Shown here: positions 22,665-40,677 of the stretch, one piece after another
Layout: each line of letters begins with the position of its first letter
Numbering within the stretch: the stretch's first letter is position 1
Assembly: GCA_016782445.1 (NCBI GenBank)
Contig: JADHYM010000006.1
Coordinates: 1-45,990, forward strand
Length of the DNA: 45,990 nucleotides
From: Candidatus Omnitrophota bacterium
GTDB lineage: Bacteria; Omnitrophota; Gorgyraeia; JABMRN01; RBG-13-46-9
Direction: 5' to 3'
Translations under genes and position numbers: made by a program
Notes under the pieces: generated by a model
Told to the model about the DNA's origin: nothing
The model's input: only the letters and a program-made list of their open reading frames with translations
Database searches by the model: none

Positions 22665-22931
22665 TTATGCTTTTTCCCGTATACGCCCGGTTACAAACTT
22701 GTGCAAAATGCTTGCGATAAAAGTCTGGTATGGCAAACCTTCTTCCACGGCCCTTTTTTGTATGCCCTCAAGGTCATGTGCGGATACACGTATGTTTATA
22801 CGCTTGTCCTTCTTGAGTGTGGCACGGGCATAAGCAAGGTACTTCTTTAACGAAGAAGAAACCTTCTCTTTTGACTTCCATTCTCCTTTTTCGTATTCTT
22901 CGAGTATTTCTTTCTCTTCTCTATTCATCAT
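22665..22931 (-). CDS. brnA: BrnA-like type II antitoxin
   Basis: 88 residues. It resembles the antitoxins partnered with BrnT: an acidic N-terminus (EEKEILEEYEKGEWKS), then a ribbon-helix-helix-like part with a beta strand (RINIRVSAHD), a helix (LEGIQKRAVEEG) and LPYQTFIASILHKFVTGR. It would neutralise BrnT and repress the shared promoter. It overlaps the toxin gene by 11 bases, in the usual toxin-first order. Confidence 0.82.
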   Translation of the reverse strand: MMNREEKEILEEYEKGEWKSKEKVSSSLKKYLAYARATLKKDKRINIRVSAHDLEGIQKRAVEEGLPYQTFIASILHKFVTGRIREKA

Positions 22932-23211
22932 TTTTCACCTCGCTTAAATATTCTTTAGTAGCTTTTCTTGACGGAATTATTGTCTTCAAAAACACGTCTT
23001 TCTTCCCTTCCACGAAAGGAACAAGATATGCATAATCACCAATCCTTACCACAAACATACGCTGGTTTTTGTACTTTTGCTTATTCGGATGGTCTAAAAC
23101 GTCCAGCAGATTACCTTTTTCGATAAAGAACACAACTTCTTCAAAAGATACCTTCCGCTCTTCTATAAGTTTCTTATTCTTCTCTTCATCCCAGGTATAA
23201 TATTTCATCAT
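22921..23211 (-). CDS. brnT: BrnT-like RNase toxin
   Basis: 96 residues, the normal size for BrnT ribonuclease toxins. Hallmarks are the early WDEEKNKKLIEERKVSFEEV, LDVLDHPNKQKY, RMFVVRIGDYAYLVPFVE, and the C-terminal IIPSRKATKEYL. BrnT has an RelE/RNase A-like fold and cleaves RNA when free of BrnA (family knowledge). The first ATG lies only 4 bases beyond a strong -10 box, so the mRNA is probably leaderless or nearly so. Confidence 0.88.
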   Translation of the reverse strand: MMKYYTWDEEKNKKLIEERKVSFEEVVFFIEKGNLLDVLDHPNKQKYKNQRMFVVRIGDYAYLVPFVEGKKDVFLKTIIPSRKATKEYLSEVKNDE

Positions 23212-23511: not shown

Positions 23512-23527
23512 TGGCAGCCCCACGGGG
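23512..23527 (-). pseudogene. 3' fragment of a tRNA-Glu gene, with CCA
   Basis: On the minus strand this reads CCCCGTGGGGCTGCCA: the 3' half of a T-stem, the acceptor strand, discriminator G and CCA. Fourteen bases (23514-23527) are identical to the 3' end of the intact tRNA-Glu (23944-23957). It begins where the other tRNA-Glu fragment (24281-24467) stops, at the T-loop. Confidence 0.75.
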
Positions 23528-23528
23528 T

Positions 23529-23612
23529 CTACTACGCCACATTGCTTGCGCCCTGCTTCGCTACATTGCTTACGCGTGTAGCTACGCAGAGGCTCGCGTG
23601 TGGCTTCGTAGG
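23529..23612. repeat. nested hairpin with TTC/TTC-type internal loops
   Basis: The outer hairpin is CTAC-TAC-GCCACA (23529-23541) pairing with TGTGGC-TTC-GTAG (23599-23611). Inside it is CTGC-TTC-GCTACA (23553-23565) pairing with TGTAGC-TAC-GCAG (23577-23589). Both have a 4-bp outer stem, a 3x3 unpaired loop and a 6-bp inner stem. Each 5' arm is followed by TTGCTTRCG. The same design recurs at 23900-23937, 26777-26845 and 26885-26921. Confidence 0.85.
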
Positions 23613-23631
23613 ACCTTTTTCGACTGCTTTT

Positions 23632-23883
23632 CTACTTCGCCGCAATAAATCGTTTCTTGAGAAATGCTTGCCCTGAACCTACTTTTAGATATTTTTCGAA
23701 TCGTCGAGCAAGTGCCTTACTGCGAAATATTATATGGGTCTCTAATGACCAAGGAGCAAACCTCTTGCTATAACCAGAAGCTGCAGCATTATGTTCTTGA
23801 AGTCTGCGTTGTAGATTATCGGTAATGCCGATATAATACTTGGCGGGATTTTTTTCACTTATCAGGATGTATACGATATGCAT
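23632..23883 (-). CDS. small GIY-YIG nuclease domain protein, copy 1
   Basis: 83 residues, a stand-alone GIY-YIG domain. The signature is visible as VYILISEKN then YYIGITDN, with conserved Arg (LQRRLQEHN, the catalytic-Arg helix) and the metal-binding Glu position near FRSKALARRFEKYLK. The length matches the YhbQ/UPF0213-like group. Such proteins are related to homing endonucleases and to DNA-repair nucleases; the exact role of short forms is unclear. It lies between a tRNA-Glu 3' remnant and the intact tRNA-Glu, and is bracketed by an inverted repeat. Confidence 0.85.
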   Translation of the reverse strand: MHIVYILISEKNPAKYYIGITDNLQRRLQEHNAAASGYSKRFAPWSLETHIIFRSKALARRFEKYLKVGSGQAFLKKRFIAAK

Positions 23884-23899
23884 ATATTTATGCTGCCAT

Positions 23900-23937
23900 T
23901 CCTACGAAGCCGCAACATGAAAATATTGCGGCGAAGT
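23900..23937. repeat. hairpin with 3x3 GAA/GAA internal loop beside tRNA-Glu
   Basis: On the plus strand CTAC-GAA-GCCGCAA pairs with TTGCGGC-GAA-GTAG around a 10-base loop. It ends 7 bases from the 3' end of tRNA-Glu, on the side of the GIY-YIG copy 1 start. The inner stem differs from the tRNA-Gln copy by compensating changes. Confidence 0.85.
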
Positions 23938-23944
23938 AGAAAAG

Positions 23945-24019
23945 CAGCCCCACGGGGATTCGAACCCCGGTCTTCAGAATGAGAATCTGATGTCCTAGGC
24001 CGGGCTAGACGATGGGGCC
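23945..24019 (-). tRNA. tRNA-Glu (CTC)
   Basis: A complete cloverleaf: acceptor GGCCCCA pairs with TGGGGCT (one terminal G-U pair), D-arm GTC...GAC, anticodon stem TCAGA/TCTGA with loop TTCTCAT (anticodon CTC, codon GAG), and T-arm CGGGG-TTCGAAT-CCCCG with discriminator G. No CCA is encoded; the sequence continues C then T-run. tRNA-Gln and tRNA-Leu nearby, and the tRNA-Glu remnant at 23512, do encode CCA. The 5' end lies inside the 3' end of GIY-YIG copy 2. Confidence 0.95.
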
Positions 24020-24261
24020 ATGTTATTTACTAATCTTTTAAATACTCTATTTCCTTTATAGCTCTTTATTTCTTTTTCTCTTGTAGCCGCTTCGTGTTTT
24101 GTCGAGAATTCTTCTTTATATACAATAAAATACGGACCTTTATTCCTGGTTGAGCGTGTGTGGTTGCCATTATGTTGCCGTATCCTTCTTTCTATATCTT
24201 TAGTGTTTCCAATATAAAAACTGCCTGTTTTTTGGCTTTTCATTATATAAGTACAATACAT
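23995..24261 (-). CDS. small GIY-YIG nuclease domain protein, copy 2, overlapping tRNA-Glu
   Basis: 88 residues: MYCTYIMKSQ, then SFYIGNTKDIERRIRQHNGN (the GIY-YIG core is modified to FYIGN), the Arg helix and Glu-containing AATREKEIKSYKG. The last eight codons and the TAG stop are formed by the 5' part of the intact tRNA-Glu gene, an overlap of 25 bases, so gene and tRNA share sequence. It begins 20 bases from the point where the broken tRNA-Glu copy ends. Differences from copies 1 and 3 show these are not recent duplicates of each other. Confidence 0.8.
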   Translation of the reverse strand: MYCTYIMKSQKTGSFYIGNTKDIERRIRQHNGNHTRSTRNKGPYFIVYKEEFSTKHEAATREKEIKSYKGNRVFKRLVNNMAPSSSPA

Positions 24262-24299
24262 AATATTTCTTTAATCGCTAAACCCCGGTCTTCAGAATG

Positions 24300-24355
24300 C
24301 CCCGCCGCCCCGCTTCGCGGGGGCGGGGTCCCGCCATACGTAAGTAACGGCGGGA
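24300..24355. repeat. palindromic insertion in the tRNA-Glu anticodon
   Basis: It holds two GC-rich hairpins: CCCCGC-family arms around GAA, and, on the minus strand, TCCCGCCGTTACTTACGT followed by ATGGCGGGA, a 7-bp stem. The second hairpin recurs in the D-arm insertion. Confidence 0.8.
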
Positions 24356-24381
24356 AGAATCTGATGTCCTAGGCCGGGCTA

Positions 24382-24454
24382 CCCCGTCGTAACCTCTGCC
24401 TGCTTTCAGCAGGCAAGTATGACGGGGCCCCGCCACACGTAAGTTGCGGCGGGG
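24382..24454. repeat. palindromic insertion in the tRNA-Glu D-arm
   Basis: On the minus strand a hairpin CCCGCC-GCAACTTACGTGT-GGCGGG is followed by a hairpin with CCCCGTC/GACGGGG and an inner GCCTGC/GCAGGC stem. The first is the same repeat as in the anticodon insertion (shared ACTTACGT loop core and CCCGCC/GGCGGG stem). Confidence 0.8.
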
Positions 24455-24465
24455 GACGATGGGGC

Positions 24466-24540
24466 CAAATTTGCGAAGCAAATTTGATACTGAGGAAGTC
24501 TTATGAATCCGACCCACGGGAGGATTCATGACTTCCGAGG
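24466..24540. repeat. two hairpins between tRNA fragment and GIY-YIG copy 3
   Basis: AAATTTGC-GAA-GCAAATTT is a perfect 8-bp hairpin at 24468-24486. Next to it GGAAGTC...ATGAATCC pairs with GGATTCAT...GACTTCC (about 24494-24538). The second follows the stop of GIY-YIG copy 3 and might end its transcript. The full gap 24262-24544 holds no protein gene. Confidence 0.65.
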
Positions 24541-24544
24541 TACC

Positions 24545-24805
24545 TTAATTTTCGCTTATTAACTCCAGCTTTTTCCTGCGTGTAAATCCTTGTATTTCCA
24601 ATTCCCTCTTACGCGCAGCAGAGTTAGTCCCGAGTTTTTCTTTGTAAATGAGCTTTACGGGATATCTATATTTAGTAAAGCGGCAACCTTTACCTTTATT
24701 GTGGGTTGTTACTCGTTTTTCTACGTCGTTTGAAATTCCGGTATAAAGCTTGTCGTCCCTACATCGTACTATATAAACGAACCAAGGCTTTAAAAGCATA
24801 AGCAC
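24545..24805 (-). CDS. small GIY-YIG nuclease domain protein, copy 3
   Basis: About 86 residues from a GTG at 24805, chosen because AAGGA lies seven bases upstream; the upstream TTG at 24829 and the ATG at 24799 are alternatives. The core is WFVYIVRCRDDKLYTGISND, followed by the Arg helix VEKRVTTHNKGKG and the conserved SAARKRELEIQGFTRRKK containing the metal-binding Glu. This is the YhbQ/UPF0213-type layout and the most canonical of the three. It lies downstream of tRNA-Leu and upstream of the broken tRNA-Glu. Confidence 0.88.
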   Translation of the reverse strand: MLMLLKPWFVYIVRCRDDKLYTGISNDVEKRVTTHNKGKGCRFTKYRYPVKLIYKEKLGTNSAARKRELEIQGFTRRKKLELISEN

Positions 24806-24886
24806 GCAAAGGTCCTTCGAAAATGGCAAACGCTCCTCTAAGTCGCGTTTTCTTCATTTTTCTCAGGATTAAATTTTTTCAAAATT

Positions 24887-29008: not shown

Positions 29009-29743
29009 TCATCCCTTAAGCACTCCCAAAGGATACGTCTTCACCACTTCGTTAGCTATACGTTTTGTAGCCTCTGCCGGGCTCATTCCCCAGTAAGTCG
29101 GGCACATTGAGAGAATTTCTACCATGGAAAAACCGCCGTTTTCAATCTGGATTTCGAACGCTTTCTTTATCGCCTTTTTTGTCCTCAGAATTTCTCTGGG
29201 AGAATGGACAGATGTCCTCTCCACGAATCTCGCCCCGGGAAGCACGGCTATCATCTCGGAAATCTTCAAAGGGTAGCCGTCTCTTTTTACAGTTCTCCCT
29301 TTTTTAGTGGTCGTTGTTTTTTGATCGACTATGGTTGTGGGCGCCATTTGACCCCCTGTCATTCCGTAAACCCCGTTATTTACGAAAACGACCGTAATGT
29401 TTTCTCCCCTGTTTGCCGCGTGTATAATTTCAGCCGTTCCGATAGCGGCGAGATCTCCGTCACCCTGATAGGTAAAAACTATTCTTTCGGGAAGAACCCT
29501 TTTTATGCCCGTTGCCACAGCCGGCGTTCTCCCGTGAGCCGCTTCTGTAACGTCAAAATTCCAGTAGTCATATGCAATAACTGCGCAGCCAACCGGTGCG
29601 ACAGCGATCGTTTTCTCTCTTACCTTGAGCTCGTCTATCACCTCACACACAACGCGATGGACAATACCGTGCCCACATCCAGCGCAATAGTGAGTTACGA
29701 CATCTATCATTGAATCAGGTTTTTTAAAAATTATTCTTTCCAT
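29009..29743 (-). CDS. 2-oxoacid:ferredoxin oxidoreductase, beta (TPP) subunit
   Basis: 244 residues from the ATG at 29743 (MERIIFKKPDS), chosen over an upstream ATG because the upstream extension only translates the end of the alpha gene and a palindrome. The thiamine-diphosphate signature is YQGDGDLAAIGTAEIIHAANRGE, and CAGCGHGIVHR is the CxxCG start typical of beta subunits. NNGVYGMTGGQMAPTT is a strong family marker. It binds TPP at the heart of the enzyme. The start is 10 bases after the alpha stop. Confidence 0.95.
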   Translation of the reverse strand: MERIIFKKPDSMIDVVTHYCAGCGHGIVHRVVCEVIDELKVREKTIAVAPVGCAVIAYDYWNFDVTEAAHGRTPAVATGIKRVLPERIVFTYQGDGDLAAIGTAEIIHAANRGENITVVFVNNGVYGMTGGQMAPTTIVDQKTTTTKKGRTVKRDGYPLKISEMIAVLPGARFVERTSVHSPREILRTKKAIKKAFEIQIENGGFSMVEILSMCPTYWGMSPAEATKRIANEVVKTYPLGVLKG

Positions 29744-29753
29744 ATTTTCTCGC

Positions 29754-30827
29754 TTATAGCCTGCCTGCCGGCAAGCAGGCTTCCTTGATAATGTCTTCCT
29801 CACGCGGTACGCCCCCGCCGGTTCTTCCGTAGAAACGAACCCTCTTATCGCATTGAACTGCAAGCCGTACATCCTCCAACATCTGGCCCGCGCTCATTTC
29901 CACCGTTAAAAATCTCGTCTTTCCTTTGTCGAGCGCCTTAAGCGCCTTATACGGGAAAGGCCATAGGCTTATCGGGCGGAAAAGCCCTGCTTTTATTTTG
30001 TCATTTCTTAGCCGGTTTACGCAGGCTCTGGCAATACGGCTTGAAGTGCCATATGCAACAATCACTATTTTGGCGTCTTCTGTTTTGTATTTTTCGAACC
30101 TGAGTTCGTTTTTATTGATCAGGCTGTATTTCTTCTCGAGTTTCCTGTTAAACTCTTCCAGCGCGCCCTCTTTAAGAAGCAAAGACCTTATCACGTTCGG
30201 CTTTCTTCCCTTACATCCTGTTAGTGCCCACGGCTTCTTAGAGCCTGCGGCCTGCGGCCTGTAACCTGCAACCTGAATAGGTTCCATCATCTGCCCCAGA
30301 ATTCCGTCTCCTAATATCATGACGGGATTTCTGTATTTATCGGCCAAATTGAACGAGGCGTAGGTAAAATCAAACATTTCCTGGCAGGATCCCGGCGCAA
30401 GCACAATGGTTCTGTAGTCTCCGTGACCCCCGCCTCTTGTCGCCTGAAAATAGTCGCTTTGAGCCGGCGAAATATTGCCAAGACCCGGGCCGGCGCGCAT
30501 GATATTTACTATTACTGCAGGGAGTTCGCAGCCCGCAAGGTACGAAATACCTTCTTGCTTTAAGCTTATTCCGGGACTTGACGAAGTGGTTATTGCTCTG
30601 GCCCCGGTTACTGCAGCGCCGAAAACCATGCTTATAGCCGCGAGTTCTGATTCAGCCTGTATAAAAATGCCGCCTACCTCGTCCATTCTCTTCGACATGT
30701 AAGAGGTGAGTTCGTTCTGCGGCGTAATCGGGTAACCCGCGTAAAACTTGCACCCGGCTCGTATCGCCCCCTCGCCGCATGCCTCGTTACCCGTTATAAG
30801 TATTTTTTCTGTATTTTTGGTTTTCAC
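29754..30827 (-). CDS. vorB: 2-oxoacid:ferredoxin oxidoreductase, alpha subunit (VorB/KorA type)
   Basis: 357 residues. Start ILITGNEACGEGAIRAGCKFYAGYPITP and the strongly conserved MRAGPGLGNISPAQSDYFQATRGGGHGDYR point to the VorB-like group (2-oxoisovalerate or related substrate); 2-oxoglutarate cannot be excluded. Residues about 183-193 (QVAGYRPQAAG) come from a 7-bp repeat array not expected in the family, and the C-terminal CLPAGRL comes from a palindrome. Both are likely repeat intrusions at surface-exposed or terminal sites. The gene overlaps the ferredoxin gene by four bases. Confidence 0.93.
   Translation of the reverse strand: MKTKNTEKILITGNEACGEGAIRAGCKFYAGYPITPQNELTSYMSKRMDEVGGIFIQAESELAAISMVFGAAVTGARAITTSSSPGISLKQEGISYLAGCELPAVIVNIMRAGPGLGNISPAQSDYFQATRGGGHGDYRTIVLAPGSCQEMFDFTYASFNLADKYRNPVMILGDGILGQMMEPIQVAGYRPQAAGSKKPWALTGCKGRKPNVIRSLLLKEGALEEFNRKLEKKYSLINKNELRFEKYKTEDAKIVIVAYGTSSRIARACVNRLRNDKIKAGLFRPISLWPFPYKALKALDKGKTRFLTVEMSAGQMLEDVRLAVQCDKRVRFYGRTGGGVPREEDIIKEACLPAGRL
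29758..29784. repeat. palindrome GCCTGCCTGCCGGCAAGCAGGC at the alpha/beta gene junction
   Basis: A near-perfect palindrome forms the last codons of the alpha gene (CLPAGRL). It would read as PACRQAG in the frame that precedes the beta start. Short palindromes with this peptide translation recur in several uncultured bacterial genomes (recollection). Related GC-rich palindromes occur at about 24399-24416 and 40874-40897. Confidence 0.7.
30244..30278. repeat. 7-bp tandem repeat (CCTGnnn x5) inside vorB
   Basis: Five contiguous heptamers all begin CCTG: two CCTGCGG, then CCTGTAA, CCTGCAA and CCTGAAT. Translated in the alpha subunit they give the region around QVAGYRPQAAG. The same CCTG heptad family lies at 11516-11543. 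Confidence 0.85.
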
Positions 30828-40509: not shown

Positions 40510-40677
40510 ATAAGCGCCCTGCCAGAGCCGTGTAAGAGTGAAAAACTTTAGTCCCTTTAAGTAAAGGTGGGTGCCCTCCGCCCAGATCCAAAGATAAGAG
40601 CAAGTTAGGCTCCCGTTAACTATTTATTGGCAAAAGTTTTCGCACCCCGGTTCACGCGAACGGCAGGGCATATATCT
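40510..40677 (-). ncRNA. 6S-RNA-like structured transcript
   Basis: About 168 bases on the minus strand. The ends pair perfectly (GCCCTGCC at 40662-40669 with GGCAGGGC at 40516-40523). The 5' GCCCTGCCGTTCGCG and the 3' block GGGCGGAGGGCACCCACC, followed by a small hairpin, resemble 6S RNA. A good promoter sits just upstream. Because the next gene begins 14 bases after the closing stem, a regulatory leader for the DUF39 gene is the alternative. Confidence 0.6.

Follow-up and report, generated by a model that had tools for sequence, protein, structure and literature searches.

The locus analysed here raises the question of how a tRNA-Glu gene came to be broken into two pieces lying on either side of a complete tRNA-Glu and two small GIY-YIG nuclease genes. 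In the window, the whole 45,990-nucleotide stretch of contig JADHYM010000006.1 of a Candidatus Omnitrophota bacterium, the minus-strand order is tRNA-Leu, GIY3, broken tRNA-Glu, GIY2, intact tRNA-Glu(CTC), GIY1, a palindrome-rich tract and a tRNA-Glu 3' end. The parts are given below, where U-type denotes a GIY-YIG gene that ends at the start of an intact tRNA and D-type one with a tRNA upstream, within the limits stated further on for the class sample.

24545-24829, minus strand: GIY3, third GIY-YIG gene, directly downstream of tRNA-Leu(GAG)
24455-24466, minus strand: outer (displaced) tRNA-Glu 5' piece, nt 1-12, identity to the intact tRNA 12/12
24382-24454, minus strand: 73-nt double hairpin after tRNA nt 12 (D-arm/D-loop), predicted fold -44 kcal/mol
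24356-24381, minus strand: outer tRNA-Glu piece, nt 13-38, identity 26/26
24300-24355, minus strand: 56-nt double hairpin inside the anticodon, after anticodon nt 2, predicted fold -40 kcal/mol
24281-24299, minus strand: outer tRNA-Glu piece, nt 39-57, with its end in the T-loop, identity 19/19
23995-24261, minus strand: GIY2, U-type GIY-YIG gene, 88 aa, PF01541 E 5.9e-16
23944-24019, minus strand: intact (inner) tRNA-Glu(CTC), ARAGORN and Rfam RF00005, 57.1 bits
23924-23947: one arm of the perfect 24-bp inverted repeat that encloses GIY1; extends into the tRNA 3' end
23632-23883, minus strand: GIY1, D-type GIY-YIG gene, 83 aa, PF01541 E 4.8e-14
23624-23647: second arm of the same 24-bp repeat
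23528-23623: palindrome-rich tract from GIY1 to the 3' piece, with partial inverted repeats
23512-23527, minus strand: outer tRNA-Glu 3' end, 16 nt, CCCCGTGGGGCTGCCA

A first-pass annotation, made from the window sequence, had described these parts as a composite element inserted in the T-loop of a tRNA-Glu gene, and ARAGORN, Rfam, PF01541 and sequence comparison placed every part where it had been described or a few bases off; GIY3 was absent from that account. The break does lie in the T-loop, with the 5' piece ending in GGGGTT, the 3' piece starting with CCCC and about CGAAT missing, and the tract between the pieces, put at about 750 bp, measures 753 bp (24280-23528). Over nt 1-57 the outer tRNA-Glu is identical to the intact copy at 57/57 tRNA letters, and GIY2 shares the 3' end of its reading frame with the first 25 nt of the intact tRNA-Glu. 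The 3' piece CCCCGTGGGGCTGCCA begins at the T-stem's 3' strand and contains CCA, which is missing from the intact tRNA-Glu of the window; the same difference occurs in locus L070, where it can be read as an insertion right after nt 73, and we therefore do not claim an RNA origin from it. All three GIY proteins of the window score above the PF01541 cut-off (E 5e-14, 6e-16 and 4e-16). GIY3 is kept in the same place in the related genomes G003, G004 and G007, and was thus regarded as an old resident and a neighbour outside the insertion. Between the tRNA-Glu pieces the only open reading frames are those for GIY-YIG proteins, with no integrase or recombinase gene, which rules out an integrase element, and a group I intron in the window was ruled out by the lack of any RF00028 match in Rfam.

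A DNA search of relatives recovered the order of the window in G024 and G038 as well, at a different locus, preceded there by a coding sequence that we take, by eye, to be gyrA. As a perfect 57-nt copy and a 16-mer flank the same tRNA, and the order recurs in these two genomes, the arrangement exceeds chance. A chance origin was also rejected for the 3' piece, a similar piece of 15-16 nt being present in four other D-type loci.

Elsewhere in the window, a BrnT-like toxin gene and a CopG/NikA-like antitoxin gene, the latter below the Pfam cut-off, lie beside the tRNA locus at 22665-23211. The predicted proteins at 29009-29872 and 29754-30827 contain RKPACRQAGY and CLPAGRL stretches, which from their sequence look as if a palindrome of the CCTGCCTGC type had been inserted in or near the coding sequence. 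A 6S RNA was found at 40512-40672 (48.4 bits, slightly above the Rfam threshold).

Protein searches of 197 genomes of the window's class, which belongs to Omnitrophota, with GIY1 and GIY2 gave GIY1-like matches in 44 genomes and GIY2-like matches in 79. The fetched loci hold 125 distinct GIY domains: 39 of the genes end between -35 and +23 nt from the start of an intact tRNA on the same strand (U-type), 40 lie no more than 265 nt downstream of a tRNA (D-type, a class that takes in some genes tied to a tRNA by distance alone), and 46 have no tRNA neighbour and are neither. A tRNA start at the U-type position would be expected by chance for about 0.0009 per gene (simple density estimate), and GIY genes stand at tRNA starts far more densely than chance would place them. 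The tRNAs of U-type loci include Glu, Pro, Ser, Asp, His, Asn, Gln, Arg, Ala and Tyr. BLAST detected part of the same tRNA, displaced upstream, in 31/39 U-type loci, the Pro assignments of L093, L101 and L123, which have no clear 5' piece by BLAST, being weak, and a displaced 3' piece in 5/40 D-type loci (L023, L031, which is the window, L033, L041 and L141); in the other 35 D-type loci no such piece was detected by BLAST. All five 3' pieces begin at the T-loop/T-stem junction, and the border of the D-type unit is a direct repeat of the tRNA 3' end, 16 nt in L023 (also L033 and L041) and 15 nt in L141. The end points of U-type 5' pieces vary from the D-arm to the T-arm. The proposed targeting of the T-loop thus describes the window locus and the five D-type 3' pieces but is no general rule. 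GIY-YIG genes with pieces of the neighbouring tRNA on either side, which the annotation had suggested looking for, were found in many genomes.

Two further kinds of locus were observed in the sample. Among the GIY-YIG genes without a tRNA neighbour, those of L046, L047 and L095 have a tmRNA gene close by; tmRNA genes may be targeted too. In L089, L110, L145, L130 and L085, a third kind of insert of about 200 nt with shared sequence blocks lies downstream of an intact tRNA, mostly starts near an inverted T-arm piece and ends at a displaced tRNA 3' piece; searches of these five inserts against Rfam gave no match.

The annotation had read the locus as a single element of about 750 bp, made up of GIY2, a complete tRNA and GIY1, inserted once into the T-loop. 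Both breaks of the window do fall in the T-loop and the pieces sum to nearly one tRNA, and in L067, L069, L071 and L006 (Glu and Asp) one GIY gene and an intact tRNA lie between an outer 5' piece and an outer 3' piece. In L006 and L071, however, the outer pieces overlap instead of abutting, and in G024, which has both GIY genes, the 3' piece was not found. Loci with a U unit alone (5' piece, GIY gene and tRNA, as in L064, L091 and L076) and with a D unit alone (tRNA, GIY gene and 3' piece, as in L023, L033 and L041) are common, and D-type 3' pieces share their start position even where there is no U unit. A single composite insertion is therefore quite unlikely. Because relatives have the two units separately, we read the window as probably one U and one D insertion, and the tRNA fragments, taken in the annotation as parts of one split gene, are most likely independent in origin, an outcome that the annotation itself had set against its reading.

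The proteins of the two units are largely separated on the tree as well. They belong to the GIY-YIG superfamily, with a domain carrying the conserved Tyr, Arg and Glu, and Y5, Y16, G18, R26, H30 and E62 are the same in all 17 U-type proteins compared. On a tree of 73 domains, built from 78 columns and with half of its forks open, U and D labels are clustered (6 changes vs 24.6 when shuffled, 0/500). U-type proteins group by the isotype of their tRNA (14 changes vs 25.5 shuffled, 0/300 as low), and D-type proteins hardly do so (21 changes vs 24.3 shuffled, 2/300).

Empty sites in relatives, which the annotation had proposed as a check, were found. In the family of the window, the palindromic flank that lies just before the broken copy leads straight into an intact tRNA-Glu in G003, and a diverged form of it does so in G002 and G007, a comparison that covers the left flank only, the right flank not being conserved. 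Insertion at a site that is empty in a close relative, as in homing elements, was observed in three same-genus pairs, two U and one D, and filled and empty sites differ by a compact block. In the Asp U pair, G034 has a single tRNA behind the shared upstream flank, and the filled site of G063 consists of tRNA nt 1-13, a hairpin, nt 14-24, the GIY gene and the intact tRNA, with 368 bp from start to start; the inner tRNA-Asp of G063 is identical to the tRNA of the empty site at 79/79 positions. In the Glu U pair, G106 is empty and G063 filled, with both flanks about 80% alike. In the Ser D pair, G063 is empty and G034 filled, the unit lying after CCA and ending with a second CCCGACCTCTCCGCCA. A pure assembly artefact was rejected, since the filled U sites of G063 are on one 1.97-Mb contig and the arrangement is also present in Luteirhabdus pelagi A3-108. 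When set against G063 and G106, the tRNA-Glu at G034:C1:270861-271027 (L271, L276) is inverted relative to its flanks.

Three Glu U-type proteins, on which the resulting cross-phylum sample is thus centred, were used to scan 84,980 species genomes; this gave 460 relatives, of which 80 loci were kept. In about 59 of these 80, a tRNA on the same strand is close by. The kept loci belong to Omnitrophota, Patescibacteria, Bacteroidota and Chlorobiota, Zixiibacteriota, Planctomycetota, Saganbacteria and others. In Luteirhabdus pelagi A3-108 (L242, NZ_JAECMS010000001.1; 177x assembly, record without a MAG label), units of a tRNA-Arg 5' piece, a hairpin and a GIY gene are repeated in tandem before an intact tRNA-Arg(TCG), with CCTGCCTGCCGGCAGGCAGG in the D-loop of the tRNA-Arg 5' piece and an assembly gap (a run of N) inside the array. 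The 20-nt palindrome of this locus also interrupts outer tRNAs in Omnitrophota and Patescibacteria. When the Luteirhabdus GIY protein, the one relative tested for carriage by phages or plasmids, was searched against phage and plasmid collections, no match was obtained at 1e-5.

The hairpins were analysed in a U-type set of 79 loci, comprising the class sample and the cross-phylum set. A recognisable 5' start of the same tRNA stands upstream of the nuclease gene in 67 of the 79, and after nine of these had been dropped by hand (hairpin-free, unclear or tandem), 58 loci were left for the statistics. With one-base slippage allowed and loci counted singly, kinship being ignored, the 68 interruptions were compared with a uniform expectation over nt 8-57: 35 are in the D-loop (17 expected), 15 in the anticodon loop (14), 12 in the linker between D-arm and anticodon arm (8) and 6 in stems (24), the avoidance of stems having p = 7e-7. 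Of the inserts in the anticodon loop, 13/15 follow the second anticodon nucleotide. The T-loop of some outer 3' pieces also contains a hairpin (L006, L067, L069 and L071), and in some Pro and Glu loci the anticodon arm is replaced by a hairpin. The outer pieces of L188, L205 and L208 are hairpin-free and also more diverged.

These positions bear on an alternative in which an SLX1-like, structure-specific GIY-YIG enzyme would act on tRNA genes folded as DNA, so that both the palindromic hairpins and the nuclease units would enter at tRNA loops, with the hairpins as non-autonomous partners of the units. Such loop-targeted insertion agrees with the scarcity of hairpins in stems, with the preference for the site after anticodon nt 2, with the T-loop hairpins of the outer 3' pieces and with the 24-bp inverted repeat that encloses GIY1. 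The nearest solved structures, moreover, are UPF0213 proteins and then SLX1, with I-TevI weaker, so that a structure-specific enzyme at tRNA loops is conceivable. On the other hand, no inverted repeat is obvious at U-type units, hairpin-free outer pieces exist, the sequences of the hairpins vary by locus, and the counts take related loci singly. We regard this alternative as unlikely, and the more specific reading that a minimal enzyme opens folded tRNA-gene loops and admits hairpins together with its own gene, one tRNA being kept whole, as likewise unlikely.

In a separate case, the outer and the inner tRNA-Ser(UGA) of L088 (G077:C33, ~1402-1847) both carry the same hairpin of about 30 nt inside the anticodon. 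No other tRNA-Ser(UGA) was found in the G077 genome, which is 92% complete and in which Ser GCT, GGA and CGA were found. Either an intact tRNA-Ser(UGA) is missing from the assembly or the interrupted tRNA is used, and the anticodon hairpin may be removed from the RNA in G077.

The letters of the outer and inner tRNAs agree at 1887/1921 aligned places, with 38/58 loci identical. Since they also match the empty-site relatives, the duplicated part looks native or homogenised. Most duplications begin at about tRNA nt 1, for which an RNA-derived (tRNA-fragment) origin was considered; against it, 7/58 loci share 9-40 nt of upstream flank. These seven resemble tandem duplications that include the flank, and together with L073, where the tRNA 5' part is duplicated with no nuclease between the copies, they fit a further explanation, close to the alternative named in the annotation: a tandem tRNA duplication that later underwent unrelated decay, with GIY-YIG genes arriving by chance. 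The arrangement is found in dozens of loci, with break and hairpin positions repeated among them, which is at odds with that course of events, as are the excess of GIY genes at tRNA starts, the tracking of tRNA isotype by U-type proteins and the compact block by which empty and filled sites differ. The pairs of empty and filled sites already disfavour this reading, and we consider it highly improbable.

The account that we favour, and hold to be reasonably probable, is that of homing-like GIY-YIG elements that duplicate part of a tRNA and leave one working copy, two such units being present in the tRNA-Glu of the window. The annotation's notion of an integrase-free GIY-YIG system in which tRNA genes are broken while an intact tRNA is kept is supported in this form. 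The architecture and its recurrence, the empty and filled sites, the duplication and the grouping of U-type proteins by isotype are observed; we infer that the nuclease would open the tRNA gene and that repair of the break would copy the unit in. At a U-type unit such as that of GIY2, insertion would have left the old 5' part of the tRNA upstream, and the nuclease gene now leads into a whole tRNA that has a 5' part of its own; at a D-type unit such as that of GIY1, insertion would take place at the 3' side of the tRNA and leave its last 16 nt downstream. As part of the tRNA is duplicated at each insertion, one working tRNA would always remain and the host would survive. The tRNA promoter may drive the nuclease gene, and the hairpins in the displaced piece may play a part in the process, for instance by preventing re-cutting or keeping the repeats from recombining. 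Against the homing-like account, the intact inner tRNA would have to escape the nuclease, 35 D-type loci show no 3' piece by BLAST, and 46 GIY genes have no tRNA next to them.

Integrative elements use tRNA 3' ends as attachment sites. The D-type unit resembles them in being bounded by a 15-16-nt repeat of the tRNA 3' end and in leaving an intact tRNA, but it is only about 0.4 kb long, has GIY-YIG as its only gene and encodes no integrase or other recombinase. Group I introns with homing endonucleases occur in bacterial tRNA genes (PMC3984707) and likewise bring GIY-YIG and tRNA genes together; in two of our loci an intron-bearing tRNA is directly behind a GIY gene. In L074 (1750-2139) the group I intron in the anticodon loop was confirmed by Rfam, and in L149 (1755-2063) an apparent group I intron in the anticodon loop is indicated by ARAGORN and the sequence. 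The window and most loci differ in having no intron match, and a whole second tRNA takes the place of splicing. Repetitive or double hairpin elements, short, GC-rich and inserted in genes, are known from mitochondrial DNA (PMC2800124). The single and double hairpins described here are similarly short, GC-rich and within genes, but they lie in the displaced tRNA copy of a nuclease locus and recur at particular loop sites, including the anticodon.

The closest known systems are the mORFs of fungal mitochondria and SegB of phages. Fungal mORFs, found in atp6 of Allomyces and in atp6, atp9 (GIY-YIG), cox2 and nad3 of Glomus, bring an endonuclease ORF and a replacement gene end, whereby the native end is displaced and the replaced end is foreign (PMC3630166). 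The units described here share the endonuclease ORF in an essential gene with a second copy of a gene end and a displaced native end. They differ in that the target is a bacterial tRNA gene of which the 5' or the 3' part is duplicated, that the copies are nearly identical and not foreign (1887/1921 overall and 79/79 for Asp), that the displaced piece contains hairpins, and that the protein is the domain alone, about 80 aa long. Because the supplied part is not foreign, we claim a likeness in architecture and not membership of the mORFs. SegB, according to the accessible text of its report, is a free-standing GIY-YIG homing endonuclease linked to tRNA genes, whose cutting promotes tandem amplification of the tRNA-segB segment, and the 5' end of the tRNA was noted to share microhomology with the 3' end of segB (PMC13096335). 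As in our units, a GIY-YIG enzyme thus adjoins tRNA genes. SegB differs in being phage-borne, and that same text describes neither displaced tRNA pieces nor hairpins for it (PMC13096335), nor does it report an isotype preference, whereas the U-type proteins follow tRNA isotype. A search of the open-licence literature, with subscription papers outside its reach, found no description of the arrangement of GIY-YIG genes and tRNA pieces.

Together, this looks like a widespread kind of mobile element, apparently undescribed in the open literature, that spares its host by leaving it one whole tRNA. If this is true, it would constitute a class of very small bacterial mobile elements, of about 0.35-0.4 kb and with one gene of about 80 codons, and essential tRNA genes have been colonised in many phyla, including ultra-small bacteria, without an integrase, a transposase or an intron. 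Part of the small GIY-YIG gene complement of these genomes could also be explained in this way. With the three pairs of empty and filled sites and the Luteirhabdus pelagi locus, the cutting, the movement and the role of the hairpins are directly testable.
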